From positions 1 to 45,208 of IMG/VR virus record IMGVR_UViG_3300024346_000133: 45,208 bases of DNA. One strand, given 5' to 3'. The first letter of the stretch is position 1. Every line of letters starts with the position of its first letter. Source of the DNA: a virus. Positions 1-20,464 of this stretch are shown here, one piece after another. The notes below the pieces were generated by a model. It saw nothing but the letters and a program-made list of their open reading frames with translations, was not told the DNA's origin and ran no database searches. The position numbers were made by a program, and so were the translations under genes.

Positions 1-2740
1 CACCTGTATCACCTTTAGCACCGTTAGCACCAGAAGTACCAGATGTACCTGCAGCACCTTGAGCACCTTGAGCACCTGTATCACCTTTAGCACCATTAGC
101 ACCTGAAGTACCAGATGTACCTGCAGCTCCTTGAGCACCTTGTGCACCTGTATCACCTTTAGCACCGTTAGCACCAGATGAACCTGATGAACCTGAAGTA
201 CCAGATGTACCTGCAGCACCTTGAGCACCCTGTGCACCTTGTGCACCTGTAGCACCTTTAGCACCGTTTACACCAGATGAACCTGATGAACCTGAAGTAC
301 CTGCAGCACCTTGAGCGCCTTGAGCACCTGTATCACCTTTAGCACCGTTAGCACCAGAAGTACCAGATGTACCTGCAGCACCTTGAGCACCTTGAGCACC
401 TGTATCACCTTTAGCACCATTAGCACCTGAAGTACCAGATGTACCTGCAGCGCCTTGAGCACCTTGTGCACCTGTATCACCTTTAGCACCGTTAGCACCA
501 GAACTACCAGATGTACCTGCAGCACCTTGTGCGCCTTGTGCACCTGTATCACCTTTAGCACCGTTTACACCAGATGAACCTGATGAACCTGAAGTACCAG
601 ATGTACCTGCAGCACCTTGAGCGCCTTGTGCACCTTGAGCACCTGTATCACCTTTAGCACCGTTTACACCAGATGAACCTGATGAACCTGAAGTACCAGA
701 TGTACCTGCAGCACCTTGAGCACCTGTATCACCTTTAGCACCATTAGCACCTGAAGTACCAGATGTACCTGCAGCGCCTTGAGCACCTTGTGCACCTGTA
801 TCACCTTTAGCACCGTTAGCACCAGAAGTACCAGATGTACCTGCAGCACCTTGAGCGCCTTGTGCACCTTGAGCACCTGTATCACCTTTAGCACCGTTTA
901 CACCAGATGAACCTGATGAACCTGAAGTACCAGATGTACCTGCAGCGCCTTGAGCACCTTGTGCACCTGTATCACCTTTAGCACCGTTTACACCTGAAGT
1001 ACCGTCAGTACCTGAAGAACCATTAGTACCAGAAGTACCGTCAGTGCCAGAAGTACCAGCTGTACCAGATGAACCTGAAGAACCAGATGAACCTGAAGAA
1101 CCATCAGTACCATCAGTACCTGATGAACCATGAGTACCATCTACACCTGATGTACCAGAGTATCCAGAAGTACCGTCAGTACCAGAAGTACCAGCTGTAC
1201 CAGATGAACCTGAAGAACCAGATGAACCTGAAGAACCAGATGAACCTGATGAACCTGATGAACCTGAAGTACCAGAAGTACCAGAAGTACCTGCTGAACC
1301 TGAAGAACCGTTTGAACCTGAAGAACCAGATGAACCTGAAGTACCAGCTGTACCAGAAGTACCAGCTGTACCAGATGAACCTGAAGAACCATTTGAACCA
1401 GATGAACCTGAAGTACCTGCTGTACCAGAAGTACCTGCTGTACCAGATGAACCTGATGAACCATTTGAACCAGATGAACCAGATGAACCTGAAGTACCAG
1501 CTGTACCAGAAGTACCAGCTGTACCAGATGAACCTGATGAACCTGATGAACCTGAAGAACCTGAAGAACCGTCAGTACCAGAAGTACCGTCAGTACCTGA
1601 AGAACCTGAAGAACCTGAAGAACCGTCAGTACCAGAAGTACCGTCAGTACCAGAAGTACCCGCTGTACCAGATGAACCAGATGAGCCAGATGAACCTGAA
1701 GAACCGTCTGTACCATCAGTACCTGAAGAACCGTGTGTACCATCTACACCTGAAGTACCAGAGTATCCAGATGTACCATCAGTACCAGAAGTACCAGAAG
1801 TACCAGCTGAACCTGATGAACCTGAAGTGCCTGAAGTACCAGATGAACCAGATGAACCTGATGAACCTGAAGTACCTGCTGTACCAGAAGTACCGGAAGA
1901 ACCAGATGAACCAGATGAACCTGAAGTACCAGAAGTACCAGATGAACCTGAAGAACCGTTTGAACCAGATGAACCAGATGAACCTGATGAACCTGAAGTA
2001 CCTGAAGTACCAGCTGTACCAGAAGTACCTGCTGTACCAGAAGTACCAGATGAGCCAGATGAGCCTGATGAACCTGAAGTACCAGAAGTACCTGCTGTAC
2101 CAGAAGTACCAGATGAACCAGATGAACCCGATGAACCTGAAGTACCTGCTGTACCAGAAGTACCGGAAGAACCAGATGATCCAGATGAACCTGAAGTACC
2201 CGCTGTACCAGAAGTACCAGCTGTACCAGATGAACCTGAAGAACCTGATGAACCGTTTGTGCCATCAGTACCAGAAGTACCCGATGAACCTGAAGAGCCT
2301 GACGAGCCATTTGTACCGTCTGTGCCTGAAGAACCTGAAGAACCTGATGAACCGTCTGTACCATCAGTTCCGGCTGTGCCCGAAGTTCCTGCAGTGCCAG
2401 ACGAACCGGACGAACCGTCCGTACCGTCAGTGCCTGAAGAACCCGAAGATCCGTCCGTACCGTCTGTTCCTGAAGTGCCCGAAGAGCCTGAAGAACCAGA
2501 AGTACCAGATGAACCTGAAGAGCCAGATGAACCTGATGTTCCAGCAGTACCAGATGAGCCAGATGAACCAGATGAGCCAGAAGAACCTGAAGTGCCTGCT
2601 GTACCAGAAGTACCTGCAGTTCCAGAAGTTCCAGCTGTACCTGATGATCCGCTAGTACCGTCTGTTCCAGATGTGCCGTTAAAGCCGTCTACACCAGATG
2701 AACCTGAGGTACCAGTTGTTTTAATTAAAGGTATTGCCAT
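1..2740 (-). CDS. Giant collagen-like fibre protein, 3' end outside window
   Basis: The ATG at 2740 opens a frame that stays open for 913 codons to the window edge, so the C-terminus is missing. After about 10 unique residues ([10 protein letters not shown]) the whole protein is Gly-X-Y triplets. Residues about 10-580 are mostly Gly-Thr-Ser and Gly-Ser-Ser with some GTA, GTD and GTN. From about residue 580 (nucleotide 1000 downward) the pattern changes to [16 protein letters not shown]-type units in longer period repeats of about 24 residues. This is typical of collagen-like stalks of phage fibres, which form trimeric rods. It follows the 2772-3530 virion gene after a 31-nt gap, probably in one operon. 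The very high Ser/Thr content and nearby glycosyltransferases make glycosylation plausible (inference). The receptor-binding tip, if present, lies outside the window. Confidence 0.85.
11..1000 (-). repeat. Long-period collagen repeat array inside the fibre gene
   Basis: The segment is built from near-identical units of about 72-100 bp encoding blocks such as [19 protein letters not shown] separated by TSGTSG or SSGSSG spacers. Units differ by swaps such as GAN to GVN and by the number of GAQ triplets, as expected from unequal recombination. It is coding, not CRISPR. Confidence 0.8.
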
Positions 2741-2771
2741 TTTTCTTTATTTCTATTTTGTGTTTAGTTTT

Positions 2772-3530
2772 TTAATCTAGTGCAGATTTAGAGTAAATAA
2801 TGTCAATATTATCAGTAGTTGATAGCTCGTAACCTGCAATGTTACCATTCCAGTAAAGCTCGTCACCTGCTTCAATATTAGCATTCAATTTAGCTGTTGC
2901 ACCACCGTCATTTGAAAAATAACAGTCCGAAGTTTTTACACCATCACCTTCAGATACACCTACACCGTTAACAATAATGTCAACCGCTGAATCCAAGAAT
3001 GGAGTGTATGTGATTGTAATGCCAGTTGGAGATGCGTCACCATTTGTATTTGCTGGTGAAAGATCTCTTTGATAAACTTCAACGCCTGTATCCACCGGTG
3101 CACCACCAACAGATGGTCTCCAAGGAAGTACATGTGCAGTCGTTTCAGTGATGGCTTGCATGATAGGATTACTATATGCATACGCGTCATTAACTGTGAA
3201 CTCTACAGGTACACCAGTACCTGAATCGTCTACTACGTAGAAAGCACCTGGAATAAGATTCCATGTTGGTACTGTAACTTTACCAACTTGAACACCGATA
3301 AATGTATCTGGTGAAGAAATCGATTCAATTACAATTCTACCTAGTGAGTCCTCAGTCGAAGCGTCGGCAAGGATCCATGTTGCACCGTCATAAGCAACTA
3401 CTTGACCAGCAGAAAATCCGTGTTCAACCTGTGTGAACGAAGATTTAAGCGAGCCAGAGGTGATCGCAGTAACAATAGCATCAAGAACGTCTTGCAAGCC
3501 CTCAATTTGTTTGATTTTGATCTGAGACAT
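2772..3530 (-). CDS. Virion fibre/adapter protein with duplicated C-terminal domain
   Basis: 252 aa. The N-terminus MSQIKIKQIEGLQDVLDAI resembles the start of the fibre at 6979-8925 (MAQIRSKQIADF), suggesting a shared attachment peptide. The C-terminal ~90 residues (about 165-252, with YTPF, VNGV, WNG, AGYEL, then a short Ile/Tyr-rich tail) match the C-terminus of the 9066-11021 protein, so this is a domain reused in the same particle. The middle is beta-rich. I infer a tail-fibre or baseplate-attached structural protein, although no exact T4 counterpart is recognised. It probably leads the operon that includes the giant collagen-like gene. A TATATATA stretch at 3583-3590 could be its promoter, 53 nt upstream. 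Confidence 0.6.
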   Translation of the reverse strand: MSQIKIKQIEGLQDVLDAIVTAITSGSLKSSFTQVEHGFSAGQVVAYDGATWILADASTEDSLGRIVIESISSPDTFIGVQVGKVTVPTWNLIPGAFYVVDDSGTGVPVEFTVNDAYAYSNPIMQAITETTAHVLPWRPSVGGAPVDTGVEVYQRDLSPANTNGDASPTGITITYTPFLDSAVDIIVNGVGVSEGDGVKTSDCYFSNDGGATAKLNANIEAGDELYWNGNIAGYELSTTDNIDIIYSKSALD

Positions 3531-3665
3531 AACTTAGATTTTTTTTATTTGTGATATGTTTTTGGGGGTTTTCTCACTACTGTATATATACACTAAATAA
3601 TGTCCAATGTTTACAATCGAGCCATAAAAAATTAACCCGTGTTACTTTTTTATAGTATATTTCGG

Positions 3666-3680
3666 TTTTGTATCATTTGA
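3666..3680 (+). promoter_or_regulatory. Possible promoter of the plus-strand fusion gene
   Basis: TTTTGTATCATTTGA starts like the TTTTGTATATTAG core of the second promoter class and lies 16 nt before the ATG at 3697. The upstream TGTC element is missing, so this is weak. Confidence 0.25.
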
Positions 3681-3696
3681 GACTAAATACTTTTAA

Positions 3697-4878
3697 ATGC
3701 CATCTAATCCATCTAAAGCTATAGAATTCAAGAGGATTCTAAGACAGTACGAATACTCGCTAGAAGATCTTAAGGACCTTAAGGACTTGGAGTCTCATAT
3801 TAAAAGTGAATTTGGAAGTGCTCTTGCAGCATTAGAACGACATGATCTTTTTGATCAGACACCTAAAATCCCAGAAGAATCGGATGTTGAGACTATTATA
3901 CCTGATACTGAAAGGGACCCTGCCTTTAAAAAGCTTTTTAGGAAGGTTGTTGTTAGGTGTCATCCTGATAAACTAAGTGATAAGCTTACTATTTTACAGA
4001 AGGCCGAAAAGAAGGACCTTTACGAAAAAGCAATCAAGGCTAATGATGATTATAATTGGGCAATGCTTATTATTGTTGCGATAAAATTAGAGTTAGAACT
4101 TCCTGAAGAATATTATGAGTATATTGAAAACCTTAAAAGTGAATCTGTTAAGGTGTCTGAAGAGATTGAAACTATTCAAGGCTCTGTTGCATGGAAGTGG
4201 TATCACACTGAAAGTGTAGAAGAAAGAGCTCAAATTCTAAAATTATACATTGCTTTTATAGAAAAGCAAAAGTATGAGAACGTCAAAGAATCTAAACTCA
4301 TACTTGGTTTGGGTCATCCAAGAACCGGAACTGGTTATACTTCTAATCTTTTAAAGACTTGGGGTTTGGATGTAGGCCATGAAAAAATGGGAGCTGATGG
4401 GATTATTGCATGGCAACTTGTTAGTGATATAGAACCTAGGATCTTTATGGAAGACTTTGACTCTTCTAGATATACTTATAAGTATCTTATTTATAATGTA
4501 AGAGATCCAAGGGGATCTATTCCTTCTATTGCATTAACTGAAAATGAAACTATAGGCTATCGTTTTAGAAGTCTTGGATTGTTTCAATCTTTTAGCCATG
4601 TTGAAAATGCTGTTAGATCTTTATTGGAATGGGATAAGATTATAAGATCTAAGAATCCTGACTTTGTTTATAGAATCGAAGATCAAGCAACTGAGCTTCA
4701 CAGATTTTTAACTTCTAAAAATATTGAAGTATCTGAATTTAAAGATAGTGATTTAAGAAATAAAAGGAAACACGGTGGTCTAGATAAAATCAAAGACGAT
4801 ATAATGTCTTTAAGTCCTGAACTTAAACAGGGTCTAGATGAATATTGTGAAAGGTATGGGTATCCTAAGATGTTTTAG
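3697..4878 (+). CDS. J-domain / sulfotransferase-like fusion protein
   Basis: 393 aa on the plus strand, against the flow of its neighbours. Residues about 75-145 look like a J domain: a basic helix FRKVVVRC, then the HPD motif at 89-91, then helices containing KAEKKDLYEKA and ANDDYNWAML. J domains bind and stimulate Hsp70 (DnaK). Residues about 200-390 resemble a P-loop sulfotransferase: a nucleotide-loop-like GHPRTGTGYT at 206-215 (5'-PAPS loop position) and RDPRGSIPS at 269-277 (3'-phosphate motif position). Sulfotransferases move sulfate from PAPS to sugars or proteins. It ends directly against the converging glycosyltransferase at 4879, so the two stop codons abut. The substrate is unknown; host surface glycan or glycosylated phage fibres are inferences. 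The J-domain call is fairly firm, the sulfotransferase call moderate. Confidence 0.65.
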   Translation: MPSNPSKAIEFKRILRQYEYSLEDLKDLKDLESHIKSEFGSALAALERHDLFDQTPKIPEESDVETIIPDTERDPAFKKLFRKVVVRCHPDKLSDKLTILQKAEKKDLYEKAIKANDDYNWAMLIIVAIKLELELPEEYYEYIENLKSESVKVSEEIETIQGSVAWKWYHTESVEERAQILKLYIAFIEKQKYENVKESKLILGLGHPRTGTGYTSNLLKTWGLDVGHEKMGADGIIAWQLVSDIEPRIFMEDFDSSRYTYKYLIYNVRDPRGSIPSIALTENETIGYRFRSLGLFQSFSHVENAVRSLLEWDKIIRSKNPDFVYRIEDQATELHRFLTSKNIEVSEFKDSDLRNKRKHGGLDKIKDDIMSLSPELKQGLDEYCERYGYPKMF

Positions 4879-5670
4879 TTAATGGTCCCAAAGTTTTGAC
4901 CAATGACATCTTACATAATAATGTACTTGAATATGATCTAGATTAGATCTGTGATTCTTAATAGTATTATTTGCAAATTCAATATCCTCACTTGTTCCTT
5001 TTTCAGAAACATCGGACCATTTATGGTCAGGGAAACCTTTTTTATGCCACATAGCAACAGTTCCCATTGTTTTACCACCAACTGAGATCCATTCACTAGG
5101 AAGTCCTGGTATTTTAAAGATATCGCTTTCAATAGTTGCAACACTTTGCAACTTAGCAGGATCATCTTTAAAGCGTTCTCTTTGTAACTTTAAAATTCCC
5201 AAATAAGCAAAGTTTTCAATGATCCTGGTATTAAACACCATTTTAATCTTTCTTTCTTCTGGTCTATCTTCAGAAATTTTATCTGCAATAGAAAGTTGCC
5301 CTATCAAGCCATTAACTGCACTATTTAGAATAAAATCATCAGAGTCTACATAACCGATCCAATCACCAGTAGCCATTTCCACACCAACCTGTCTTGGATA
5401 GCCTCTATGAAATACAGCACCATCATTATTTTCATACATTCTATTTTCAGCAGGTTCGACAAACTTAAATTTAATTCTAGGTTCATGTGTAAAATTTAGC
5501 AAGTATTGTTCTTCTGTGATTTTACAACCGTCAGATACAATAATCAGTTCCCAATTAGGGTTTATTTGATCAATAAAGCTATTTACAACTCTATTAAACT
5601 TTTCAATAGGATTTGATCTTGCACCTGGATAATCACCAAGATACGATTGCATTACAAAAGAAAGCTTCAT
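4879..5670 (-). CDS. Family 2 (GT-A) glycosyltransferase
   Basis: 263 aa. The N-terminus has the GT-A Rossmann pattern: a beta strand KLSFVMQSY, then ELIIVSDG (residues 41-48), a donor-binding SDG typical of GT2 enzymes. The metal-binding DxD motif lies in YVDSDDF at 107-113, after GYPRQVGVEMATGDWIG. A later GTSEDIEFANN segment is at the usual place of the acceptor-side acidic motif. It transfers a sugar from a nucleotide-sugar donor; the acceptor is unknown. Its ATG overlaps the stop of the upstream DUF2827 gene by one base (TAATG), so the two are translationally coupled. It is the middle gene of a likely decoration island among fibre genes. Confidence 0.85.
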   Translation of the reverse strand: MKLSFVMQSYLGDYPGARSNPIEKFNRVVNSFIDQINPNWELIIVSDGCKITEEQYLLNFTHEPRIKFKFVEPAENRMYENNDGAVFHRGYPRQVGVEMATGDWIGYVDSDDFILNSAVNGLIGQLSIADKISEDRPEERKIKMVFNTRIIENFAYLGILKLQRERFKDDPAKLQSVATIESDIFKIPGLPSEWISVGGKTMGTVAMWHKKGFPDHKWSDVSEKGTSEDIEFANNTIKNHRSNLDHIQVHYYVRCHWSKLWDH

Positions 5671-6869
5671 TATCTATTATATAGGTTTGTTTTCCAGTCT
5701 AACTCCCAGCTCATTGACTTTTTAAGATCTTCATCAAACAAAGAATGTAAAAGCATTGTATACTCTTCTTGCAGTTCTTTATTTTCAGGTCTGTATCTAA
5801 AGATCTTTTCCATTGAATCTTTTTTATACTCTCTAATATTTTTATCATGGTTTTCAGCAGCATTAATAATTTGGTTTGCTGCATCGTCCATATTAAATCC
5901 CTCATAGTAGTAACCCAGATCTGCGATTAATTCAGCATTGTGAACTAATGGATATCCAAGGTATAGTGCATCTAAGTACAGATAGTTTAATGGATTTCCC
6001 CACTGGTGTGAAACTACGATATCCGTTCTTGATTCTAAATAGTGTACGATTGGGTATCTAGAAGTGAATTGAGCCTTACTATCTCTGACAATATCTAATT
6101 GATTCATCAAGGCCTTAAAAAGATTAATGTCTACAAGTTTATTAGTATTACTAGCATACATAAATGATATAAGATCTGGTCTCTTTCTATAAGCTTGTTC
6201 AGTTGCCAAAATACATGGCATTGAATACTTAACAATATTAATGTTAGGTTCAAACATAGAAATCCTTTTAGAAGGACCTTCATTATTATAATAAGGATCC
6301 TTAGTAGGATCTGCTTGAATTATTTTAATGTGTTCATCGATAAACATAGGGTCCCATACAAATGGAATTGCCCTTGGATCTTTTCTTAAAAGAATCTTAT
6401 AGTAATCGTGATTATTGAACTTTTGTTGTGGAACATACCATACATCATCAATTGCATGATCTAGTTTCATTAAAATGTTGTGTCCCTCTCTTGATTGAAA
6501 CAGAATATCTTCCATATCGTTTACATAGTTATTACCACATTGGTATGTAATAACTTTTAGATTTGGATTCATACCTTTCCATAAAAGAGTTTCTGATTCA
6601 TTAGATGCTGTCTGTAAATGGATAAGGACATCTAGATTTTTAGGGTAATCAGGCTCTTCAAAAATGTTTACAGTTTTATATTCGTTAACATCCCATGGAA
6701 ACTTCTCCATGGCATTATTTTTCTGGAAGTTTAATATAGAGACTTCATGACCTGCAAGTTTTAATAACTTGGCTAGCATCATACCATTTTGTCTGATTCC
6801 ATTTGAAAAAACAGAATGACCAGTTTCTAGAACTACAGTGATACCTACTTTATAAGAATCTTTTCTCAT
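5670..6869 (-). CDS. DUF2827-type glycosyltransferase (GT-B-like)
   Basis: 399 aa. The start, VGITVVLETGHSVFSNGIRQ with NGMMLAKLLKLAGHEVSIL, is the hallmark of the DUF2827 family, which is thought to be GT-B glycosyltransferases found in capsule/LPS loci and phages. The C-terminal half has SHQWGNPLNYLYLDALYLG followed by PLVHNAELI, matching the nucleotide-sugar-binding half of GT-B enzymes. Donor and acceptor are unknown. It is coupled to the GT2 gene by a TAATG overlap. A strong terminator at 6914-6941 sits upstream, so it probably has its own promoter between 6870 and 6914, where I see no clear motif. Confidence 0.75.
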   Translation of the reverse strand: MRKDSYKVGITVVLETGHSVFSNGIRQNGMMLAKLLKLAGHEVSILNFQKNNAMEKFPWDVNEYKTVNIFEEPDYPKNLDVLIHLQTASNESETLLWKGMNPNLKVITYQCGNNYVNDMEDILFQSREGHNILMKLDHAIDDVWYVPQQKFNNHDYYKILLRKDPRAIPFVWDPMFIDEHIKIIQADPTKDPYYNNEGPSKRISMFEPNINIVKYSMPCILATEQAYRKRPDLISFMYASNTNKLVDINLFKALMNQLDIVRDSKAQFTSRYPIVHYLESRTDIVVSHQWGNPLNYLYLDALYLGYPLVHNAELIADLGYYYEGFNMDDAANQIINAAENHDKNIREYKKDSMEKIFRYRPENKELQEEYTMLLHSLFDEDLKKSMSWELDWKTNLYNR

Positions 6870-6913
6870 TACTATTATAACGTATGTTATTTGGTTTGTT
6901 TATTTATCTTAAT

Positions 6914-6941
6914 AAAAAAGGGGGCCTCTTGCGAGGCCCCC
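6914..6941 (-). terminator. Rho-independent terminator after the coiled fibre gene
   Basis: Read on the minus strand: GGGGGCCTC, loop GCAA, GAGGCCCCC, then TTTTTTATT. This perfect 9-bp GC-rich stem with a U-tract lies 38 nt past the stop of the 6979-8925 gene and separates fibre genes from the glycosyltransferases. Confidence 0.93.
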
Positions 6942-6978
6942 TAAGGAACTTAAGTGTTAAGTGTTATTTCAATAACTA

Positions 6979-8925
6979 TTATTGAACTGCAACACCAAGA
7001 ACAATAACCTTATCAGTCTCTTCTAGATCGTAAACGATGCTTAGATCGAAATTTTGGCCGTCAATCATAGTGTATTTAACTCTTAGACCGTTAACGTAGA
7101 TTTCTAGGTCTTGATTACCACCGTAGAACATGTTAGCAGTCGTGATTTGTGTACCACCTTCAACACCAGTTACTAGTTCTTCTGCCATCCAGTCAGCAGC
7201 CATTCTATTGTCAATTTCAATAGAAAGTGCTGTAGATAGAGTAGCGTCAGCAGTAGTTCTGTTAACAACTTCTGTAGATAGGTTGTTAGAAAGAACAACG
7301 TCAGCAGCAGCTCTTGCAGCAACTTCTGTAGATAGGTTGTTAGAAAGAACAACGTCAGCAGCAGCTCTGATAGAAGCCTCTGTAGATAGTTCTGTAGAAG
7401 CGTGAAGCTTAACAGACTGGTCACCAGAAATGTGGTGATCGTGCTCTAGGTTGATTGCAGAGATTCTTGCAGAAATTTCAGCAGAAAGAGCTGTATCTAG
7501 AGAAGTATCGCCAGAGATTCTAGAAGAAATTTCAACAGAAAGTGCGTTTGTTAGAGATAGATCGCTAGAGATTCTTGCAGACTCTTCTGCAGAAACTTCA
7601 GCATTGTGCTCAGCTAGAACAGCTATGATAGAAGCCTCTAGGTCACCGTCAACTGATTGGAATGCAGAAACGATCTCAGTTAGAGAATCTAGAGCTTCTG
7701 GATCGATGTTAGAGATAACGAACTCAATCTTCGTGTTTAGAGAAGCATCAGCAGAGATTCTTGCAGATGTCTCAGCAGAAACAAGGCCGTCAGCGTAAAG
7801 CTTAACAGATGCATCACCAGAAAGTCTTGCAGAAGCTTCTGAAGAGATTTCTGTAGAAGCGTAAAGCTTAACAGAAGCATCACCAGAAAGTCTGTTAACA
7901 ACTTCTGTAGATAGGTTGTTAGAAAGAACAACGTCAGCAGCAGCTCTGATAGAAGCCTCTGTAGATAGTTCTGTAGAAGCGTGAAGCTTAACAGACGCGT
8001 CACCAGAAACGTGGTGATCGTGCTCTAGGTTGATTGCAGAGATTCTTGCAGATGTCTCAACAGAAACTGCATTTGTTAGAGATAGATCGCCAGAGATTCT
8101 TGCAGCAGCCTCTGTAGAGATACCGTTAGATGCCCAAGTCTTAACTGAAGCGTCGCCGCTTGTTCTGTTAGTAACTTCTGTAGATAGGTTGTTAGAAAGA
8201 ACAACGTCAGCAGCAGCTCTTGCAGCAACTTCTGTAGATAGGTTGTTAGAAAGAACAACGTCAGCAGCAGCTCTGATAGAAGCCTCTGTAGATAGTTCTG
8301 TAGAAGCGTAAAGCTTAACAGACGCGTCACCAGAAACGTGGTGATCGTGCTCTAGGTTGATTGCAGAGATTCTTGCAGAAATTTCAGCAGAAAGTGCGTT
8401 TGTTAGAGATAGATCGCCAGAGATTCTTGCAGATGTCTCAAAAGAAACTTCAGCGTTGTGCTCTGAAAGAACAGCTAGGATAGAAGCCTCTAGATCACCG
8501 TCAACAGACTGGAATGCAGAAACGATCTCAGTTAGAGAATCAAGAGCAGCTGGATCAACGTTAGCGATGATGAAATCTACTTTAGTATTTAGAGAATTAG
8601 CACCAGCGATTCTTGCAGCAACTTCTGTAGATAGGTTGTTAGAAAGAACAACGTCAGCAGCAGCTCTGATAGAAGCCTCTGTAGATAGTTCTGTAGAAGC
8701 GTAAAGCTTAACAGAAGCATCACCAGAAAGTCTGTTAACAACTTCTGTAGACATTTCTGTAGAAGCGTAAAGCTTAACAGAATTATCAGCAGAAACTCTT
8801 TGAGAAGTTTCAGTAGATACTAGGTTGTAGATGTCTACTGCAGGTGCGATTGCAGCGCTGTCAACTGTTGTCCAGTCTAGGATTGCTGCGAAATCCGCGA
8901 TTTGTTTAGAACGAATTTGTGCCAT
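6979..8925 (-). CDS. Repetitive tail-fibre protein with HDHH motifs
   Basis: 648 aa. Short N-terminal peptide MAQIRSKQIADFAAILDW, as in other fibre proteins here. Residues about 35-580 consist of repeated units such as SGDASVKLYASTELSTEAS and IRAAADVVLSNNLSTEV, which look like a long alternating coil/loop trimer shaft. Two larger modules (about residues 108-143 and 395-431) contain VDP.ALDSLTEIVSAFQ, a motif common in marine phage fibres. Three INLEHDHH(V/I)SGD segments lie at about residues 191, 300 and 495. The last ~70 residues (ENMF-like YGGNQDLEIYVNGLRV, ending VLGVAVQ) form a small beta cap. It has a strong terminator downstream and a possible late promoter at 8987-8994. Confidence 0.75.
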   Translation of the reverse strand: MAQIRSKQIADFAAILDWTTVDSAAIAPAVDIYNLVSTETSQRVSADNSVKLYASTEMSTEVVNRLSGDASVKLYASTELSTEASIRAAADVVLSNNLSTEVAARIAGANSLNTKVDFIIANVDPAALDSLTEIVSAFQSVDGDLEASILAVLSEHNAEVSFETSARISGDLSLTNALSAEISARISAINLEHDHHVSGDASVKLYASTELSTEASIRAAADVVLSNNLSTEVAARAAADVVLSNNLSTEVTNRTSGDASVKTWASNGISTEAAARISGDLSLTNAVSVETSARISAINLEHDHHVSGDASVKLHASTELSTEASIRAAADVVLSNNLSTEVVNRLSGDASVKLYASTEISSEASARLSGDASVKLYADGLVSAETSARISADASLNTKIEFVISNIDPEALDSLTEIVSAFQSVDGDLEASIIAVLAEHNAEVSAEESARISSDLSLTNALSVEISSRISGDTSLDTALSAEISARISAINLEHDHHISGDQSVKLHASTELSTEASIRAAADVVLSNNLSTEVAARAAADVVLSNNLSTEVVNRTTADATLSTALSIEIDNRMAADWMAEELVTGVEGGTQITTANMFYGGNQDLEIYVNGLRVKYTMIDGQNFDLSIVYDLEETDKVIVLGVAVQ

Positions 8926-8986
8926 TTAATTGGTTTTTTATTTTTGTTCGTGTTTATTGAACACTACTTTAGCGTAGTATTCTAGT

Positions 8987-8994
8987 TATATATC
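8987..8994 (-). promoter_or_regulatory. Possible late promoter (GATATATA)
   Basis: GATATATA on the minus strand, 62 nt upstream of the fibre start at 8925. It has the same sequence as the recurrent late motif but is further from the ATG than usual. Confidence 0.35.
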
Positions 8995-9006
8995 GAATAT
9001 AACTTT

Positions 9007-9027
9007 ATTGAAAAGCCCATTTTCAAT
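9007..9027 (-). terminator. Weak hairpin after the 9066-11021 gene
   Basis: ATTGAAAA and TTTTCAAT pair around a 5-nt loop about 40 nt beyond the stop of the 9066 gene. It lacks a U-tract, so it may be an RNA end or processing hairpin. The 140-bp gap 8926-9065 holds this, a second small hairpin (ACTAC/GTAGT near 8965) and the GATATATA motif, and no ORF. Confidence 0.3.
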
Positions 9028-9065
9028 ATAATATGATGTTATTTTGCAATAAATTTTTAAGAAAT

Positions 9066-11021
9066 TTACACGTCAAATGAAGATGCCTGATAAGTGATAT
9101 CGACATCATCTGAAGTGTCTAATTCATATCCTGCAGCAGAACCATTCCAAATAAGAATGTCACCTGCAGTAATATCTTTAATAAGTCTTGCTGGCATAGG
9201 ATTACCAGAAGTATTATATGCTGGATCAGTAGGATCTGTAAAATAAGAGTCCTCTGTATTATCAGCATCGCCAACATTAATTTCAACACCATTAATCTTT
9301 ACAATAACGTCGCCGTCTGCAAAAGGTGTGTAATCAATATTAATACCTGTAATAAAGTGATCGTGTGTTGTATTAGCAACAACTGTTTGATTTTTATCAA
9401 CAGAAACATTTACACCAGTTTCTTGTTCAACTGCACCACCAGTTTCTAGCATTAGAAGAATTGCAGATGAACCAGCAGAAGAAGATGTAATACCGTTGTT
9501 ATTAATATATGTGCCAGATCCTGAGATCATAATGTCACCGCCGTCTTCTCTTGAAAGAACAAGGTATTCTACAGAACCGGCTGCAGTAAATGCTGGAAGA
9601 CCAACACCTGTAATAAATGAATCGCCAAGAACCTCAATGTCAGTTCCTGAAATATTGATTGATGCTGTAGGTGCTGTAGCCTGGATGGTTAGTTGACCAT
9701 AAACAGATGGATGTGCACCATCACCAGGATAAACTGAGTTAGCTTCTAGGTTTAGGCCATCTGCAATAAATGCAGCATTAAGTACCGTTGCCATAGTTGC
9801 AGCAGTGTATGTAAGATAGTTTGTTGAATCAGGATATTCAACCAAAGGAACTCCCTGATTTTCATCGAAAGTAACTGTTGTTGAATTTGTACCATCAGAG
9901 AAAGTTACTGTAAGTGGATTATATGTTGCACCTGAATCTTCAGAGATCGCAATAATTGATACACCGTTTGTAGTAGTAGCTGAATCTGAGATTGTAGTTG
10001 CATACTCAGCAAGTTTAGAAGCTACAACCTTATGAGTTGCAGTACTCGTGTTGATAAGATTTACAAATGCATCAACATTAGCAGGTACAATATGAATAGA
10101 ACCGTCAAATACTGTAATGTTATTAATCTTAAGAAGATCTGATGCAGTTGGTAGGTAGTTAGGGGCTGTTGCCTGAATAGCCGTTTGAACAGCATCTTTT
10201 ATTTGTAGGAAAAGTGGATTTGTACCCGGAGTCTTTATAACTGAAAGCGCACCTGGATTTAGAGGATCTGCATAATAAACTTCACCTGCATTTCCTGTTA
10301 AAAGTTCAGGAGATGTGTGGTTATCAATAATAGTATTGAAAGGCTTAATGTAGATAACTGTATTGTTCATGATCTTCTCTAGAACAACACCTACTGGAAT
10401 TGGAGAAGCATTAACAGCACCAAACTTTACAAAGTCACCTGTTGTTTGGTCAACTGTGATAATATCACCTTTTTCAAACGATGTTTGTGGAGTTGCAAAT
10501 TCAAATCTGTATCTTTCTGTTTCTTCTTCAGCTGCGAAACGACCTTGGATTTTATCAATAGATGCTGGAGTAGCAAAGAATGATTGAACACCTTGTGTTG
10601 TAAGCATCGGGACTCTGTTATCAGATACCTCGAAGAATGCAATCTTTTCATTAGTTGAAATGAAAGTATTTGAGTATGTCTTATAAGAGATCATATCTAT
10701 ATCCTTTGCAACAAGGTTAATAGAGTTTTCAGTCTTACTTGTAATAGAAACAATTTGAAGAACAATTTGGCCGTCTTGTGTTGTGATCCAATCACCAGTC
10801 TTAATATCTAGTGCATTATATTGCTTAGTATTACCCGATCTTGTTTCTGCAGTACCAATAGTCTGGTATGAAATCTGCTCAACTGAAATGTTATATGTAA
10901 TGTATGCGCCTGTAAATGAGATCTTCGTCTCATCAACATAAGAGTACAATTCTTTACCCGTTACTGTTACTGCAGTACCAGAAAGAAACATTGGTGGGGT
11001 TACTGGATTATAGATTGCCAT
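9066..11021 (-). CDS. Large virion fibre/baseplate-type protein
   Basis: 651 aa, beta-rich, with Thr/Ser/Asn-rich composition typical of phage fibre proteins. Residues 1-250 contain segments about defined values (FEKGDIITVDQTTGDFV, PIPVGVVLEK) that resemble the decoration/fibre-attachment domains seen in phage structural proteins. The middle contains repeated beta-sandwich-like stretches. At about residue 551 a THDHF motif precedes a C-terminal domain (555-651: YTPF, KINGVEI, WNGSAAGYEL) also found in the 2772-3530 protein. It starts 2 nt after the stop of the giant 11024-14002 gene (TAATTATG), so it belongs to that operon. No specific T4 gene is assigned. Confidence 0.65.
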   Translation of the reverse strand: MAIYNPVTPPMFLSGTAVTVTGKELYSYVDETKISFTGAYITYNISVEQISYQTIGTAETRSGNTKQYNALDIKTGDWITTQDGQIVLQIVSITSKTENSINLVAKDIDMISYKTYSNTFISTNEKIAFFEVSDNRVPMLTTQGVQSFFATPASIDKIQGRFAAEEETERYRFEFATPQTSFEKGDIITVDQTTGDFVKFGAVNASPIPVGVVLEKIMNNTVIYIKPFNTIIDNHTSPELLTGNAGEVYYADPLNPGALSVIKTPGTNPLFLQIKDAVQTAIQATAPNYLPTASDLLKINNITVFDGSIHIVPANVDAFVNLINTSTATHKVVASKLAEYATTISDSATTTNGVSIIAISEDSGATYNPLTVTFSDGTNSTTVTFDENQGVPLVEYPDSTNYLTYTAATMATVLNAAFIADGLNLEANSVYPGDGAHPSVYGQLTIQATAPTASINISGTDIEVLGDSFITGVGLPAFTAAGSVEYLVLSREDGGDIMISGSGTYINNNGITSSSAGSSAILLMLETGGAVEQETGVNVSVDKNQTVVANTTHDHFITGINIDYTPFADGDVIVKINGVEINVGDADNTEDSYFTDPTDPAYNTSGNPMPARLIKDITAGDILIWNGSAAGYELDTSDDVDITYQASSFDV

Positions 11022-11023
11022 AA

Positions 11024-14002
11024 TTAGAATATAAACATTAGGTAAGCGTGGGCGTTTCTAGAAGAAGCACCGAGACCTGCTGAGTTACCGTATTTAATAA
11101 AGTTTTGTCTAACATCCAACGTTATTGTAGATGTAAATGCACCGAAGAAGTTAGGAACAAACTGCCCAGAACCCTGGTTTGTAAAGTTAGCAGATACTGA
11201 ATCAATCTTACAATCTGCAGCATCTACTCTATATGGATGCACTTCATACTTATATGTTGAAGGTTGCCATGCCATAACTTGGATACCAGTTGGTGGGTGA
11301 GATTCACTAAATTGAACCGTAATAGAATAGATTGCATTAGCAGTATCTACGTTAACACCTGTGATTTGTGCGTTAGCTGTTAGAAATCCATCAGCTGTTA
11401 CAAATAAGTGTGAACCCGTACCTGCAATCAGGTGTTCAGAAGAGTCATAGTTTAGTCTTAGTAGGTACTTGTTAGAACCCGAGCCCGATCCACCCGTTGG
11501 TGTGACCCATGTTGTGTTGTATGGATTTGAATCAACTTTTGAAAGAACCTGGCCTGAAGTACCACCTGAAGGGATACCAATACCATTAGCACCTGAAGTA
11601 CCAGAAGTTCCATTGACACCAGAAGTACCTGATGTACCTGCAGCACCTGCTTCACCATTAATACCTGAACTACCTGATGTACCTGCAGTACCATTAACGC
11701 CAGAAGTACCAGATGTACCTGCAGCACCTGCTTCACCATTAACTCCAGATGAACCAGATGAACCATCAGCACCTTGAGCACCTTGAGCACCATTAACGCC
11801 AGAAGTACCAGATGTACCTGCAGCACCTGCTTCACCATTAACTCCAGATGAACCAGATGAACCATCAGCACCTTGAGCACCTTGAGCACCATTAATGCCA
11901 GAAGTACCAGATGTACCTGCAGCACCTGCTTCACCATTAACTCCAGATGAACCAGATGAACCATCAGCACCTTGAGCACCTTGAGCACCATTAACGCCAG
12001 AAGTACCAGATGTACCTGCAGCACCTGCTTCACCATTAACTCCAGATGAACCAGATGAACCATCAGCACCTTGAGCACCTTGAGCACCATTAACACCAGA
12101 AGTACCCGATGTACCTGCAGCACCTGCTTCACCATTAACTCCAGATGAACCAGATGAACCATCAGCACCTTGAGCACCTTGAGCACCTTGAGCACCTGCG
12201 ATACCAGAAGTACCAGATGTACCTGCAGCACCTGCTTCACCATTAACTCCAGATGAACCAGAAGTACCCGATGTACCATCAATACCATTAATACCTGAAG
12301 TACCATCAGCGCCATTTACGCCAGAAGAACCTGATGTTCCAGAAGCACCAGCAGGACCTTGAATAGAACCGCCATCAACCCACTGAGAACCATCCCATAT
12401 GTATAGGACATCAGTATCATCTGATAGATAAGCATCTCCAATTTGTTGTCCAGATGTTGGAAGTGATGCAGAAGTTGCAATAGCACCTTTAAACGTGATA
12501 CCCATACCTGGAGCACCATCTACACCAGAAGTACCCGATGTACCATCTACACCAGTAATACCAGAAGTACCTGATGTACCGTCGATACCGTTAATACCAG
12601 AAGTACCTGATGTACCGTCGATACCGTTAATACCAGAAGTACCATCAGCGCCATTTACGCCAGAAGTACCTGATGTACCGTCGATACCGTTAATACCAGA
12701 AGTACCATCAGCGCCATTTACGCCAGAAGTACCTGATGTACCGTCGATACCGTTAATACCAGAAGTACCATCAGCGCCATTTACACCAGAAGTACCATCA
12801 GCACCATTAATACCCGAAGTGCCATCAGCACCATCAGTGCCATTTACACCAGAAGTTCCTGAAGTACCGTCAATACCATTTGCACCATCAATACCATCAG
12901 CGCCATTTACGCCAGAAGTTCCTGAAGTACCGTCAATACCATTTGCACCATCAATACCACTAATGCCTGAAGTACCCGAAGTACCATCAATACCATTTAA
13001 ACCAGATGTACCATCAGCACCAGAAGTACCTGAAGTACCTACTGCTCCTGGAATACCATCAATACCTGAAGTACCTGATGTACCAGCAACACCAGAACCT
13101 GTAGCTCCGCCATATGCATCAATATTATATGTGATTGTCTGTCCTACTTCAAAAGTATAAGAATTATTAACAGGTGAATATGAATTATCTTCATAAGTTA
13201 CTAAAACTTCAGTATAATCATTATCGTTATCATCGCCTCCGCCAACTTCGGCATTAATTCTATTGTATCCTGTAATCTCATAGATTGCATACTCATTAGG
13301 TGCATTAACATTAACAACTGTAATAGTTGCACCGATATTAGAAGCACCAGCATCTCTCTTTGATAGGTAATTTTCTAGAAGTACGTTTCTTACGTTATTT
13401 TGATCTAGATTGTAGAACTTAATAGAAGTTACTTGTGTTGGATCTGCAGAGTCAAACGTAACAGACTTAAGTGCTGGATAAACACCATTAATAGCTGAAA
13501 CATTATACTTAATATAAGGAGATGAACCAGAACCATTGCCCGATGTAGAGCCTGGATTAGTTACATTTCCACCACCGCTAGGACCAGAGATCGAAGAACC
13601 TGCTACAGATCCAATTTCCAGTTGTGGAAGAACATATGTTTTTGCACTTGGGTAGTAGTTAGAGTATGTAATAGTTACTTGCGCGTAAAGTTTTCCATTC
13701 GCAAGGTTATTAGACTGTGCTGCTGTAATATCAAAGGAAATGTGACCTTGTGTATTTGAAGCTGGTTGTCCAAGTGTTAGGTAGTCAGTGACACCAGAGA
13801 TAACTGGGTTTGAGTACTGATACATCTTCTGACCAAATGAATTATAAAGAGATACTGTAATGGAATTAGCATCTGCGGCATTCAGTTGATTATTGATATA
13901 ATCTTTGTATAAAATAAGTTCGACATTCTTTGGTGTTCCTGCTGTAACTGTGACATTAGAGCCGATAAACGCCATTATATCGTCTTTTGCAACGTAAGGC
14001 AT
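11024..14002 (-). CDS. Large collagen-like tail-fibre protein
   Basis: 992 aa in four parts. Residues 1-140 (MPYVAKDDIMAFIGSNVTV and the following beta-rich part) and 165-290 (ALKSVTFDSADPTQVTSIKF, then YTFEVGQTITYNI) are two globular attachment domains. Residues about 294-811 are a Gly-X-Y collagen-like stalk, interrupted at about 495-551 by a small domain with GDAYLSDDTDVLYIWDG, like a carbohydrate-binding or beta cap insert. Residues 811-992 are a C-terminal globular domain, probably the trimerisation or receptor-binding head. The stalk contains five tandem 99-bp repeats. A GATATATA late promoter sits 29 nt upstream. I infer a receptor-binding or accessory fibre. Confidence 0.8.
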   Translation of the reverse strand: MPYVAKDDIMAFIGSNVTVTAGTPKNVELILYKDYINNQLNAADANSITVSLYNSFGQKMYQYSNPVISGVTDYLTLGQPASNTQGHISFDITAAQSNNLANGKLYAQVTITYSNYYPSAKTYVLPQLEIGSVAGSSISGPSGGGNVTNPGSTSGNGSGSSPYIKYNVSAINGVYPALKSVTFDSADPTQVTSIKFYNLDQNNVRNVLLENYLSKRDAGASNIGATITVVNVNAPNEYAIYEITGYNRINAEVGGGDDNDNDYTEVLVTYEDNSYSPVNNSYTFEVGQTITYNIDAYGGATGSGVAGTSGTSGIDGIPGAVGTSGTSGADGTSGLNGIDGTSGTSGISGIDGANGIDGTSGTSGVNGADGIDGANGIDGTSGTSGVNGTDGADGTSGINGADGTSGVNGADGTSGINGIDGTSGTSGVNGADGTSGINGIDGTSGTSGVNGADGTSGINGIDGTSGTSGINGIDGTSGTSGITGVDGTSGTSGVDGAPGMGITFKGAIATSASLPTSGQQIGDAYLSDDTDVLYIWDGSQWVDGGSIQGPAGASGTSGSSGVNGADGTSGINGIDGTSGTSGSSGVNGEAGAAGTSGTSGIAGAQGAQGAQGADGSSGSSGVNGEAGAAGTSGTSGVNGAQGAQGADGSSGSSGVNGEAGAAGTSGTSGVNGAQGAQGADGSSGSSGVNGEAGAAGTSGTSGINGAQGAQGADGSSGSSGVNGEAGAAGTSGTSGVNGAQGAQGADGSSGSSGVNGEAGAAGTSGTSGVNGTAGTSGSSGINGEAGAAGTSGTSGVNGTSGTSGANGIGIPSGGTSGQVLSKVDSNPYNTTWVTPTGGSGSGSNKYLLRLNYDSSEHLIAGTGSHLFVTADGFLTANAQITGVNVDTANAIYSITVQFSESHPPTGIQVMAWQPSTYKYEVHPYRVDAADCKIDSVSANFTNQGSGQFVPNFFGAFTSTITLDVRQNFIKYGNSAGLGASSRNAHAYLMFIF
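11700..12194 (-). repeat. Five 99-bp tandem repeats in the collagen stalk
   Basis: Five nearly identical 99-bp units encode the 33-residue block [33 protein letters not shown]. Only a few silent changes separate units, so the array is recent or kept uniform by recombination. It stays in frame. A 63-bp unit (GADGTSGINGIDG, TSGTSGVN) recurs about three times near 12590-12780. Confidence 0.85.
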
Positions 14003-16387: not shown

Positions 16388-16659
16388 TCCTCGTCTGTAT
16401 TATCTTTTTTACTAATCTCATCAATTAGTTGTTTTTCTTTTTCAGAGTCTTTGAACCAGTGATCAACCACTTTACCAAAAGCTCCAATAAGTGCTCCTAA
16501 TAGTAGTAGCAGTATTTCTTTCCACTCGCTGGATATTTCAGTGTCAGTGTGCATTGCATGGCCTATGCCGATGATTACTCCAAAGAAGGAGAATACAATG
16601 GTAAAACTAAGTACAACTTTGCCTAATAACATTCTTTTGACTATATCTACAAGTTTCAT
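16384..16659 (-). CDS. Holin-like membrane protein
   Basis: 91 aa with two hydrophobic segments: residues about 15-35 (VVLSFTIVFSFFGVIIGIG) and about 47-66 (EILLLLLGALIGAFG). They are joined by a short polar loop, and a charged tail (DHWFKDSEKEKQL to DNTDEE) follows. Size, two-TM layout and charged end match class II holins. It overlaps both neighbours by ATGA, so it is translated together with the Gly/Ala-rich protein upstream and the endolysin downstream. This operon position supports a lysis role. Confidence 0.75.
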   Translation of the reverse strand: MKLVDIVKRMLLGKVVLSFTIVFSFFGVIIGIGHAMHTDTEISSEWKEILLLLLGALIGAFGKVVDHWFKDSEKEKQLIDEISKKDNTDEE

Positions 16660-17516
16660 TTCTTCTTTTTCTTATTTCCACCAGTGATGCCACCGATCAT
16701 ATTACCAGCTTTTTTACCAGCATCTTTAGCACCACCGACAGCAGCATTTCCTGCATCTTTAGCACCACCGACAGCAGCATTTCCTGCATCTTTAACACCA
16801 CCGACAGCAGTATCTACCGCCTTTTCGGTTTCATTAGCAACTGCTTTACCAGCATCTACTACAGCTTCTTGTGCAGGATTAGTATCTACACTTACTGAAA
16901 GATCTAAATCAACACCAACTAGTAGAGCAACCTTACCATCAACACCGACAGTTGCAACACCGTCATCCATTGTAGCACCACCGCCGACTGCAGCACCAAC
17001 TTGTGCTCCAACAGATGCACCAGCACCTGCTTCAACTCCATTTCCATTCTTATCGTATGTACTATTAGATACTCCACCGCCAACGGATGCGCCAGCAACT
17101 GCACCTGCATGACCTTCAACACCATCCATTCCCACTTGTCCACTTGCACCGACATAGGCCTTAGCTTCAGCGCCGGCATGAACTTCAGTTGTATTGGTTA
17201 CACCACCATATTCTACTGCGTTAGATGCTCCAACTCCAACTGATGCTCCAACTTCTGTGTGTGCATCTACTGCTGCATTTCTTCCATCCCAACCTGCTTC
17301 AGCAGTTGCTTCAGCGTGAACTTCAGCACCCGCATGTGCTTCTTGTGAAACGGTTACATCACCAATTTGATTTTCATTTTCTACGCCAGCATGTGCTTCT
17401 ACGCCTGCTTCAGCACCGGCTTTTACTGATGTATCTGTTACTTCTGTTCCGGCACTTGCATTTGCAGATACTCCTAGGTTTTCATCACCCACTGAGTTGT
17501 TTGTTTCTTCTGACAT
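16656..17516 (-). CDS. Gly/Ala-rich repetitive protein of the lysis operon
   Basis: 286 aa, not recognised. It is strongly rich in Gly, Ala, Val and Thr, with almost no Cys. The first half alternates AGAEAGVEAHAG-type segments. The middle has hydrophobic glycine-rich stretches (GASVGAQVGAAVGGG, VALLVGVDLDLSVSV). The end has three 11-residue repeats AVGGAKDAGNA (33-bp DNA repeats near 16710-16810), a pattern like LEA or glycine-zipper proteins, and a KKKKK tail. It is translated first in a three-gene operon with holin-like protein and endolysin (ATGA overlap). It could be a virion or cell-wall adhesive protein, or a helper in lysis. It has no lipobox, so a spanin is not supported. Confidence 0.65.
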   Translation of the reverse strand: MSEETNNSVGDENLGVSANASAGTEVTDTSVKAGAEAGVEAHAGVENENQIGDVTVSQEAHAGAEVHAEATAEAGWDGRNAAVDAHTEVGASVGVGASNAVEYGGVTNTTEVHAGAEAKAYVGASGQVGMDGVEGHAGAVAGASVGGGVSNSTYDKNGNGVEAGAGASVGAQVGAAVGGGATMDDGVATVGVDGKVALLVGVDLDLSVSVDTNPAQEAVVDAGKAVANETEKAVDTAVGGVKDAGNAAVGGAKDAGNAAVGGAKDAGKKAGNMIGGITGGNKKKKK

Positions 17517-18946: not shown

Positions 18947-18971
18947 GCTTTATTAAATTAAATTAAACAAG

Positions 18972-19045
18972 TGACCCGTACGAGATTCGAACTCGTGATC
19001 TTCTCCGTGAAAGGGAGATGTCCTAAACCGCTAGACGAACGGGCC
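18972..19045 (-). tRNA. tRNA-Glu (TTC)
   Basis: Cloverleaf on the minus strand, acceptor GGCCCGT with ACGGGTC, anticodon loop CTTTCAC (TTC). 74 nt to the discriminator A; no CCA encoded. Read-out of GAA codons. Confidence 0.93.
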
Positions 19046-19084
19046 GTTTAGTGTTTATATGTGTAAAATGTAAAATGTTTCAAA

Positions 19085-19345
19085 TTACCACAAACCCCTT
19101 GGACATACCGTCTTTGTTGCTAGGGTTTTTGCAGGAAGATTACAACCGCATCCCTTTACAAGATTTCCTGTTACTGTATGTGGTGCTACTTTCGATGGAT
19201 TACATATAGATCCAAGTCTTAATTCACATGAATCACATATAGACATTCTCTTAGAGGCAACTTGCTTTGTCTCTTCATCGAGTCTGTCAAACTTGTCTGC
19301 TACAAGTCTACCCCAACCTTCTAATATATTTAGAATACTATTCAT
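19085..19345 (-). CDS. Small Cys-rich (zinc-binding) protein
   Basis: 86 aa. The N-terminal ~33 residues are helical (EGWGRLVADKFDRLDEET). The rest carries CDSC (residues 37-40), a single Cys near ICNPS, GCGC (66-68) and a terminal CPRGLW, a pattern for a structural zinc site. A family of small bacterial and phage proteins of this shape exists, but I do not assign a name. It sits alone between tRNA-Glu and tRNA-Ala, just downstream of the hairpin at 19360-19393, so how it is transcribed is unclear. Confidence 0.65.
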   Translation of the reverse strand: MNSILNILEGWGRLVADKFDRLDEETKQVASKRMSICDSCELRLGSICNPSKVAPHTVTGNLVKGCGCNLPAKTLATKTVCPRGLW

Positions 19346-19351
19346 TACATT

Positions 19352-19393
19352 AAAAAATAAACCCTAATGTATAGAAAACTATGCATTAGGGTT
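19352..19393 (-). terminator. Long hairpin with U-tract between tRNA-Ala and 19085-19345
   Basis: A 15-bp stem (AACCCTAATG with CATTAGGGTT extended by CATAG/TATAG) around an AAAA/TTTT loop, followed on the minus strand by TATTTTTTA. It likely ends tRNA transcripts or serves as a processing signal. Confidence 0.75.
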
Positions 19394-19448
19394 ATTCAAT
19401 TGCCACATTAGCTCCACTTTGTTTTGCCAGAGAACAAAGAAACTCTTG

Positions 19449-19522
19449 TGGAGAATAACGGAGTCGAACCGTTGACCTACTGCGTGCAAGGCAGTCGCTC
19501 TAGCCAGCTGAGCTAATCCCCC
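19449..19522 (-). tRNA. tRNA-Ala (TGC)
   Basis: Acceptor GGGGGAT pairs with ATTCTCC (two G-U), D arm AGCTCAGCTGGCTAGAGC, anticodon loop CTTGCAC (TGC), T arm GGTTCGACTCC. Followed by A73 then CA rather than CCA. Confidence 0.94.
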
Positions 19523-19589
19523 ATCTATCCGTTATCTTTAGGTGGATAAAACCCGTCGTAGCCGTAATTACGAACATCTGACTGCGTTG

Positions 19590-19662
19590 AGCGAAAGACC
19601 GGGTTCGAACCGGCGACCCTGACCTTGGCAAGGTCATGCTCTACCAACTGAGCTACTTTCGC
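19590..19662 (-). tRNA. tRNA-Gly (GCC)
   Basis: Acceptor GCGAAAG pairs with CTTTCGC, D arm AGCTCAGTTGGTAGAGC, anticodon loop TTGCCAA (GCC), T arm CCGGTTCGAACCCGG. T73 then CA. Confidence 0.94.
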
Positions 19663-19701
19663 ATTGGTATCATTTATATGATATAAACTATCGGGTGTTT
19701 C

Positions 19702-19738
19702 AAAAAGTGAGGGTAAATATTTGCAACTATTTACCCTC
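19702..19738 (-). terminator. Terminator between tRNA-Thr and tRNA-Gly
   Basis: Perfect 10-bp stem GAGGGTAAAT / ATTTACCCTC with a 10-nt loop, then ACTTTTTG on the minus strand. Placed inside the tRNA array, it suggests separate processing or termination of the Thr end. Confidence 0.7.
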
Positions 19739-19745
19739 GTAAAAG

Positions 19746-19786
19746 ACTTACTCTGGTGCGCTAATCTAACGAAAAGCGTAGTAAGT
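19746..19786 (-). other. Two-level stem-loop downstream of tRNA-Thr
   Basis: ACTTACT pairs with AGTAAGT over 41 nt, with an inner CGCT/AGCG stem and a 12-nt loop. It is right after the tRNA-Thr 3' end and before the terminator, probably a processed spacer RNA. Confidence 0.35.
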
Positions 19787-19793
19787 ACTGTTG

Positions 19794-19866
19794 AGCCTCC
19801 TGTCGGACTCGAACCAACGACCTACTGATTACAAATCAGTGGCTCTACCAACTGAGCTAAGGAGGC
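19794..19866 (-). tRNA. tRNA-Thr (TGT)
   Basis: Acceptor GCCTCCT / AGGAGGC, D arm AGCTCAGTTGGTAGAGC, anticodon loop TTTGTAA (TGT). T73 then CA. Confidence 0.93.
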
Positions 19867-19982
19867 ATTTAGGAAGGTTTTCAACAGACACTTATTCGAT
19901 AGCGTACTTCCAACTGCTTTCTTTTCCCGAAAGTCAACCACAGTAAGTGTACTTACGTGGATTTTTTAGGCTAGACTCAGTC

Positions 19983-20144
19983 TTATTGTGCGACTTCTTC
20001 AGCCACTACTTCTTCAGTTGCTACTTCTTCAGTTGCAACACCTTCTTCAACTACAGTTTCTTCAACTACAGTCTCTTCTACTGCAGCTTCGTTACAAGCT
20101 ACAGCAGTGAAAGCTAGAAGAGCAAAAAGCATAAACTTTTTCAT
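19983..20144 (-). CDS. 53-aa secreted lipoprotein inside the tRNA array
   Basis: A 53-codon frame from ATG 20144 to TAA 19983. The N-terminus KKFMLFALLAFTAVAC is a type II signal peptide: two Lys, a hydrophobic stretch, and a lipobox-like AVA-C with the acylated Cys at residue 17. The mature 37 residues are an acidic low-complexity tail of VEETV and TEEV repeats (about 14 Glu, no Lys or Arg), starting CNEAAVEE. In Bacteroidota, acidic residues just after the lipid Cys can export lipoproteins to the cell surface. The gene lies between tRNA-Ser and tRNA-Thr and is most likely a moron that alters the infected cell surface, for example superinfection exclusion (inference). Confidence 0.75.
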   Translation of the reverse strand: MKKFMLFALLAFTAVACNEAAVEETVVEETVVEEGVATEEVATEEVVAEEVAQ

Positions 20145-20204
20145 ATTACTCTTATTTGATAATTAAACCTGAAAGTGATCTTCCGTAAGATCATGCTTTC
20201 ATTG

Positions 20205-20289: not shown

Positions 20290-20367
20290 TTGCACTATTT
20301 TTAAGGAATAGTTAAACCTTTTTTGGAGCCAATATGTCAAAGAACTCTGAGTTACACGCCTGGGTTG

Positions 20368-20441: not shown

Positions 20442-20464
20442 AAATCTTATTAGATTTAGACTTG

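Follow-up and report, generated by a model that had tools for sequence, protein, structure and literature searches.

A candidate glycan-decoration cassette with a DUF2827 protein, embedded in the tail-fibre module of a T4-like phage

Gene organization of the fibre module

The window, that is, the whole stretch of 45,208 nucleotides analysed here, is a linear fragment from IMG/VR that belongs to a T4-like phage with a contractile tail, whose portal, protease, major capsid, terminase, sheath and tube genes all lie on the minus strand. Its terminase is closest in GenBank to those of huge Bacteroidota-type and uncultured phages, and the source of the cassette described below is a large aquatic phage. 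The first 14 kb hold the following features:

2-2740, minus strand: P0001, giant Ser/Thr-rich (GSSGTSG) collagen-like fibre, incomplete at the window end (PF01391, E 2.7e-132)
2772-3530, minus strand: P0002, small fibre protein with the N-terminus M(S/A)QIK.KQI, at the same position in relatives (50-82% identity)
3697-4878, plus strand: P0003, J-domain (HPD) and sulfotransferase-like P-loop domain, recognized by sequence motifs
4879-5670, minus strand: P0004, soluble GT2 glycosyltransferase (PF00535, 31.3 bits, cut-off 23.3)
5670-6869, minus strand: P0005, DUF2827, probable GT-B glycosyltransferase (PF10933, E 7.8e-93, profile positions 1-362 of 362)
6874-6902, minus strand: promoter-like region with an ATAAATA late-like box, between the terminator and the DUF2827 start
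6919-6942, minus strand: intrinsic terminator AGGGGGCCTCGCAAGAGGCCCCCT-TTTTTA, between P0006 and DUF2827
6979-8925, minus strand: P0006, repetitive coiled fibre with 18-aa repeats, the invariant neighbour upstream of DUF2827
9066-11021, minus strand: P0007, fibre/baseplate-type structural protein, position kept in relatives
11024-14002, minus strand: P0008, collagen-like fibre of 992 aa with globular N- and C-terminal domains (PF01391, E 1.1e-66)

In the order of transcription these are P0008, P0007, P0006, DUF2827, GT2, P0003 (on the opposite strand), P0002 and P0001. One base is shared by the DUF2827 and GT2 genes, while GT2 and P0003, the sole enzyme gene of the island on the plus strand, converge with no gap between them. 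The Gly-X-Y repeats of P0001 and P0008 exceed the PF01391 cut-off, which makes both collagen-like fibres; the N-terminal domain of P0008 is conserved among relatives, and the C-terminal module of P0002, as read from its sequence, resembles that of P0007. P0005 belongs to DUF2827 by its full-length PF10933 match, and P0004 to GT2, with an acidic DSDD motif (DxD-type) that is kept in relatives. The initial annotation had placed two glycosyltransferases and a sulfotransferase-like fusion between two collagen fibre genes, and all of them are found there. Its description was incomplete in two respects: P0006, P0007 and P0002, which it did not name, also belong to the module, and the partner domain of the fusion is a J-domain.

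Conservation of the cassette among viruses

Single-protein scans returned few matches, and queries built from alignments were needed to recover 61 viral DUF2827 loci, 51 of which were analysed and collapse to 30 lineages at 90% identity. In 18 of these non-redundant lineages, and in several further contigs, the cassette sits after P0006 and before a collagen fibre, in the order P0009-P0008-(P0007)-P0006-DUF2827-slot-(P0002)-collagen, whereas in the other 12 the collagen-fibre cluster is absent around DUF2827. Seen from the coiled fibre, DUF2827 is the next gene after P0006 in all 34 P0006-family loci with downstream sequence, a count that overlaps with the previous one, as these contigs are mostly identical to those found through DUF2827 (a 35th stops within P0006 and is not counted). 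A 149-kb relative with low-Ser/Thr collagens (G021) carries no DUF2827, and no recognizable P0006 was found in the fibre stretch read. Two contigs that hold the cassette from P0006 and DUF2827 to the fused J-domain/sulfotransferase-like protein are assigned to bacterial MAGs, namely Candidatus Kapaibacterium (L170, 1-3597) and Bifidobacterium breve (L181, 1-7032), and are probably misbinned phage.

The gap between P0006 and DUF2827 is itself conserved in its design. In the window it contains a hairpin of ten pairs followed by a T-run and, among the fibre-linked gaps (collapsed at 85%), all 20 have an intrinsic terminator and then an ATAWATA box (ATA(A/T)ATA) ahead of the DUF2827 start, against 0% and 8% in shuffle controls, where the terminator never occurred. 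The terminator sequences differ from gap to gap, and the 21st gap tested (L159), which lies outside the fibre linkage, has neither terminator nor box. The T4 late promoter is TATAAATA, which the ATAWATA box resembles. Since terminator and box are present in every fibre-linked gap tested, the enzymes make up a unit of their own, and the likeness of the box suggests that this unit is probably expressed late. Lower, late expression would suit an enzyme encoded next to an abundant structural protein. With its recurrent gene order, its own terminator and late-like box, and the varied glycan-modifying enzymes of its slot, the fibre-linked enzyme island proposed in the initial annotation is strongly supported in many related phages.

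DUF2827 and the trimeric adhesins of bacteria

P0005 matches PF10933 alone in Pfam and nothing in NCBIfam, and in the literature searched DUF2827 is mentioned in one database paper, with no activity reported. The C-terminal half of the family aligns in register with the donor-sugar domain of GT4 enzymes (SHQWGNPLNYLYLDALYLGYPLVHN over ASHQEGLPNAVLEAMAGALPVVA) over 133 columns, a weak match with a nominal P of 0.018 (controls 0.2-0.9) and an hhalign probability of 2.5%. A PDB search with the DUF2827 alignment returned nothing usable. AF2 models based on shallow alignments were of poor quality (pLDDT 57 for P0003 and 47 for P0005), so the Foldseek matches of both proteins are uninformative. On the GT4 register, DUF2827 is a probable GT-B glycosyltransferase.

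The family is also found in bacteria, where one genome scan recovered 119 relatives, mostly from Burkholderiales and Snodgrassella. By whole-genome positions, at least 26 of 37 genomes have a DUF2827 gene no more than 12 kb from a YadA-anchor gene (0.86 expected), and at least 100 of the 143 copies in these genomes do so (2.3 expected), the genomes being related and sampled through DUF2827 and hence not independent trials. Flanks of 6 kb had given the adhesin link in 35 of 80 cases, an underestimate, and whole-genome positions were required. In the other 11 genomes every DUF2827 lies outside this distance from the adhesin anchors among the matches listed, partly on account of contig ends. Arrays of two or more copies occur in all 37, and the 20 adhesins adjacent to arrays have a median Ser+Thr content of 0.453, against 0.263 for 20 other adhesins of the same genome set (Mann-Whitney p = 7e-6). 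DUF2827 is therefore linked to Ser/Thr-rich trimeric autotransporter adhesins independently of phages.

A soluble glycosyltransferase gene beside a large surface-adhesin gene is also the arrangement of the BAHT family (AAH/TibC/BimC) and of HMW1C. The gene bimC adjoins the autotransporter gene bimA (PMC6439308), and the HMW1 adhesin is glycosylated by HMW1C (PMC3012730); BimC beside BimA and HMW1C are the nearest bacterial precedents. Unlike these enzymes, DUF2827 matches PF10933 only, is usually arrayed in bacteria and is also present in phages, and by its Pfam and NCBIfam profile matches P0005 is not recognized as a BAHT (autotransporter heptosyltransferase) related to AAH/TibC.

Phage glycosyltransferases often modify DNA, and this is the usual reading given for the core glycosyltransferases of moraphages in the available text of PMC12619734. 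Hypermodification of phage DNA is very improbable here, as the genes lie within the fibre cluster, away from the replication genes, and the bacterial DUF2827 homologues are chromosomal and adjoin adhesins. Moraphages, large aquatic Bacteroidota phages that are relatives of T4, have four core glycosyltransferase orthogroups together with DnaK/DnaJ genes (Arch Virol 2025, PMC12619734, available text) and resemble the window in the gene content described (T4-like, glycosyltransferases, DnaJ). That text does not tie the glycosyltransferases to fibre genes and mentions neither collagen nor sulfotransferases. It also cites self-glycosylating mycobacteriophages, in which phage-encoded glycosyltransferases are reported to act on proteins of the virion (Freeman et al. 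2023). There, by the same account, the C-termini of capsid and tail-tube proteins are modified, whereas the present cassette belongs to fibre genes, draws on different enzyme families and includes a J-domain protein.

The variable slot behind DUF2827

The slot commonly holds a GT2 among DUF2827 lineages. Alternatives in relatives are DUF7164, a polysaccharide pyruvyltransferase (PS_pyruv_trans, L168), a different hexapeptide acyltransferase (L144) and, all four in L142, HtrL_YibB, a cytidylyltransferase-like protein (CTP_transf_like), a hexapeptide protein and a GT_PLOD domain protein adjoining the collagen fibres (L142, 5630-6508; PF25342, E 6.9e-12). To judge from their domains, all these replacements are compatible with glycan chemistry. 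A further slot protein, of 453 aa (L144, 11214-12575), carries a second sulfotransferase-like motif, GLRKSGN, and a part that we guess from its sequence to be SGNH-hydrolase-like, without a Pfam match.

The slot also encodes a J-domain protein, usually of about 195 aa and without a sulfotransferase-like part; the HPD motif is present in all 20 complete proteins examined. The N-terminal half of P0003 matches the Sec63 J-domain in the PDB (E 0.003), and the relative in L094 reaches 22.6 bits for Pfam DnaJ, below the cut-off of 27.8. DnaK-like proteins, possible partners of the J-domain protein, are encoded near the fibre cluster in two relatives (L095, 2268-4118; L100, 8267-10123).

In the window the J-domain is fused to a C-terminal half with GHPRTGTGYT at its P-loop and VRDPRGSIPS, which together make up the PAPS-binding motif pair of sulfotransferases. 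Both the 5'-PSB P-loop (PRTGT) and the 3'-PSB (R..S at +8) of PF13469 sulfotransferases are present, each motif aligns with a sulfotransferase protein (L325), and GHPRTGTGYT, R269 and S277 are conserved across seven sequences. P0003 as a whole has no match in Pfam, and the domain stays below the Pfam and NCBIfam cut-offs; a stand-alone homologue (L096) reaches 13.6 bits for PF13469 (cut-off 27), and a PDB search with the domain alignment returned no sulfotransferase and nothing usable. The C-terminal half of P0003 is best described as sulfotransferase-like, with family membership unconfirmed by profile scores. The fused form occurs in about seven lineages (the window, L110, L142, L144, L148, L168 and L181; in L170 the protein is incomplete at the contig end), and the domain is free-standing in G021 and in phage C48C1. 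It is an optional extra on the J-domain protein and is absent elsewhere, which leaves the suggested sulfation of the fibres less well supported than the enzyme island itself. A literature search joining phage, J-domain and sulfotransferase found no relevant paper.

Several of these enzymes would also fit an alteration of the host cell surface, in its LPS core, capsule or exopolysaccharide, at a late stage of infection. Progeny might, for example, be kept from adhering to debris, or competing phages be shut out, and the proximity to fibres would be explained by a joint evolution of receptor binding and receptor masking. GT2 relatives are frequently polysaccharide enzymes, although this is weak evidence, polysaccharides are where pyruvyl- and acyl-transferases typically act, and phages that alter serotype through encoded glycosyltransferases are known (PMC12619734, available text). 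However, no flippase or membrane glycosyltransferase is found among the slot proteins examined, as far as annotation indicates, the cassette is obligately paired with one fibre gene and preceded by a late-like box, and bacterial DUF2827 tracks adhesins. This alternative, which the initial annotation had left beside fibre decoration, is quite unlikely and less favoured than the latter.

Acceptor of the modification

If the phage decorates its own fibres, either the collagen stalks or P0006 could be the acceptor. The initial annotation proposed the former, with Ser/Thr of the GTSG collagen repeats being O-glycosylated and sulfated. The composition of the window agrees with this, as Ser+Thr occupy 65.9% of the X/Y positions of P0001 (301 triplets) and 40.8% of those of P0008 (153 triplets). 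The collagen that comes first after the cassette is similarly rich (0.65 or more at X/Y) in 8 of 23 lineages, namely the window (0.66), L110 (0.76), L002 (0.82), L138 (0.85), L145 (0.75), L148 (0.75), L291 (0.87) and L324 (0.72), and the PLOD-type domain of the L142 slot, absent from the window, is known from animal collagen glycosylation, for which mimivirus offers a parallel. Over all 23 lineages, however, the values range from 0.016 to 0.87, and the enzymes are equally present in the 15 lineages at 0.016-0.31. Because the cassette persists there, the Ser/Thr of collagen is not what retains the enzymes. The rule that Ser/Thr-rich collagen always accompanies the cassette had held for the first four loci and was overturned by 50. 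The sulfotransferase-like domain is likewise independent of Ser/Thr richness, occurring with rich collagens in the window, L110 and L148 and with poor ones in L142, L144 and L168. Collagen Ser/Thr is thus weakened as the acceptor and not upheld as a general one, the constant partner being P0006 (34/34), and the collagen stalks are unlikely to be the main target.

The bacterial context of DUF2827 also points, by analogy, to trimeric coiled stalks. P0006 itself has a Ser+Thr content of just 15-30%, and no 'LST' sequon shared between P0006 and bacterial adhesins was found: LST occurs at a median of 73 per 1000 residues in DUF2827-adjacent adhesins and at a variable 0-32 in P0006 relatives.

Proposed mechanism

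On balance, we favour the reading that a glycan-decoration cassette sits within the tail-fibre module and would act on the phage's own fibres during assembly, late, in the host cytosol. DUF2827 (probably GT-B) would add a first sugar to Ser/Thr residues in a trimeric fibre. The likeliest target is the coiled stalk P0006, if this is indeed a trimer, joined by the collagen stalk where it is Ser/Thr-rich. The coupled GT2 would then extend this sugar, and lineage-specific enzymes (pyruvyl-, acyl- and sulfo-transferase-like, PLOD-type glycosyltransferase) may cap or vary the glycan. The J-domain protein, which in this phage additionally bears the sulfotransferase-like domain, could recruit DnaK, so that the long fibre chains are kept unfolded or assisted in assembly. 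More tentatively, and with somewhat less confidence, DUF2827 proteins in general may be cytosolic glycosyltransferases for trimeric fibrous adhesins, serving bacterial autotransporters as well as phage tail fibres, with the phage version being a late cassette whose J-domain (sometimes J-domain-sulfotransferase) protein couples fibre folding to decoration.

If true, this would give a function to the uncharacterized Pfam family DUF2827, account for the multiple glycosyltransferases of large aquatic phages by a role in decorating fibres, and connect the modification of phage tail fibres with that of bacterial trimeric adhesins. Should the fibres be glycosylated, predictions of host range from fibre sequences only would overlook some of the surface that binds the receptor. 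Because the P0006-DUF2827 pairing is obligate and compact, the hypothesis is open to direct testing with two genes.

Additional observations in the window

Between the tail sheath and the terminase lies a hexapeptide acyltransferase-like gene (27945-28586; Hexapep 29.3 bits, phrog_16087), whose product might acetylate glycans. A 167-aa ORF on the plus strand (37621-38124), outside the annotated set, lies between the clamp-loader gene and a minus-strand gene. The endolysin is adjoined by a repetitive protein rich in Ala, Gly and Val (16656-17516), which carries a tandem repeat of 33 bp towards its end. Seven tRNA genes are found at 18971-20546, including Gly-GCC, Ser-TGA, Thr-TGT and Ala-TGC, and the collagen genes encode 27% Gly, 21% Ser, 12% Thr and 10% Ala, using the codons GGT, TCA/TCT and ACT/ACA; it is possible that this tRNA set supplies the translation of the giant fibres.
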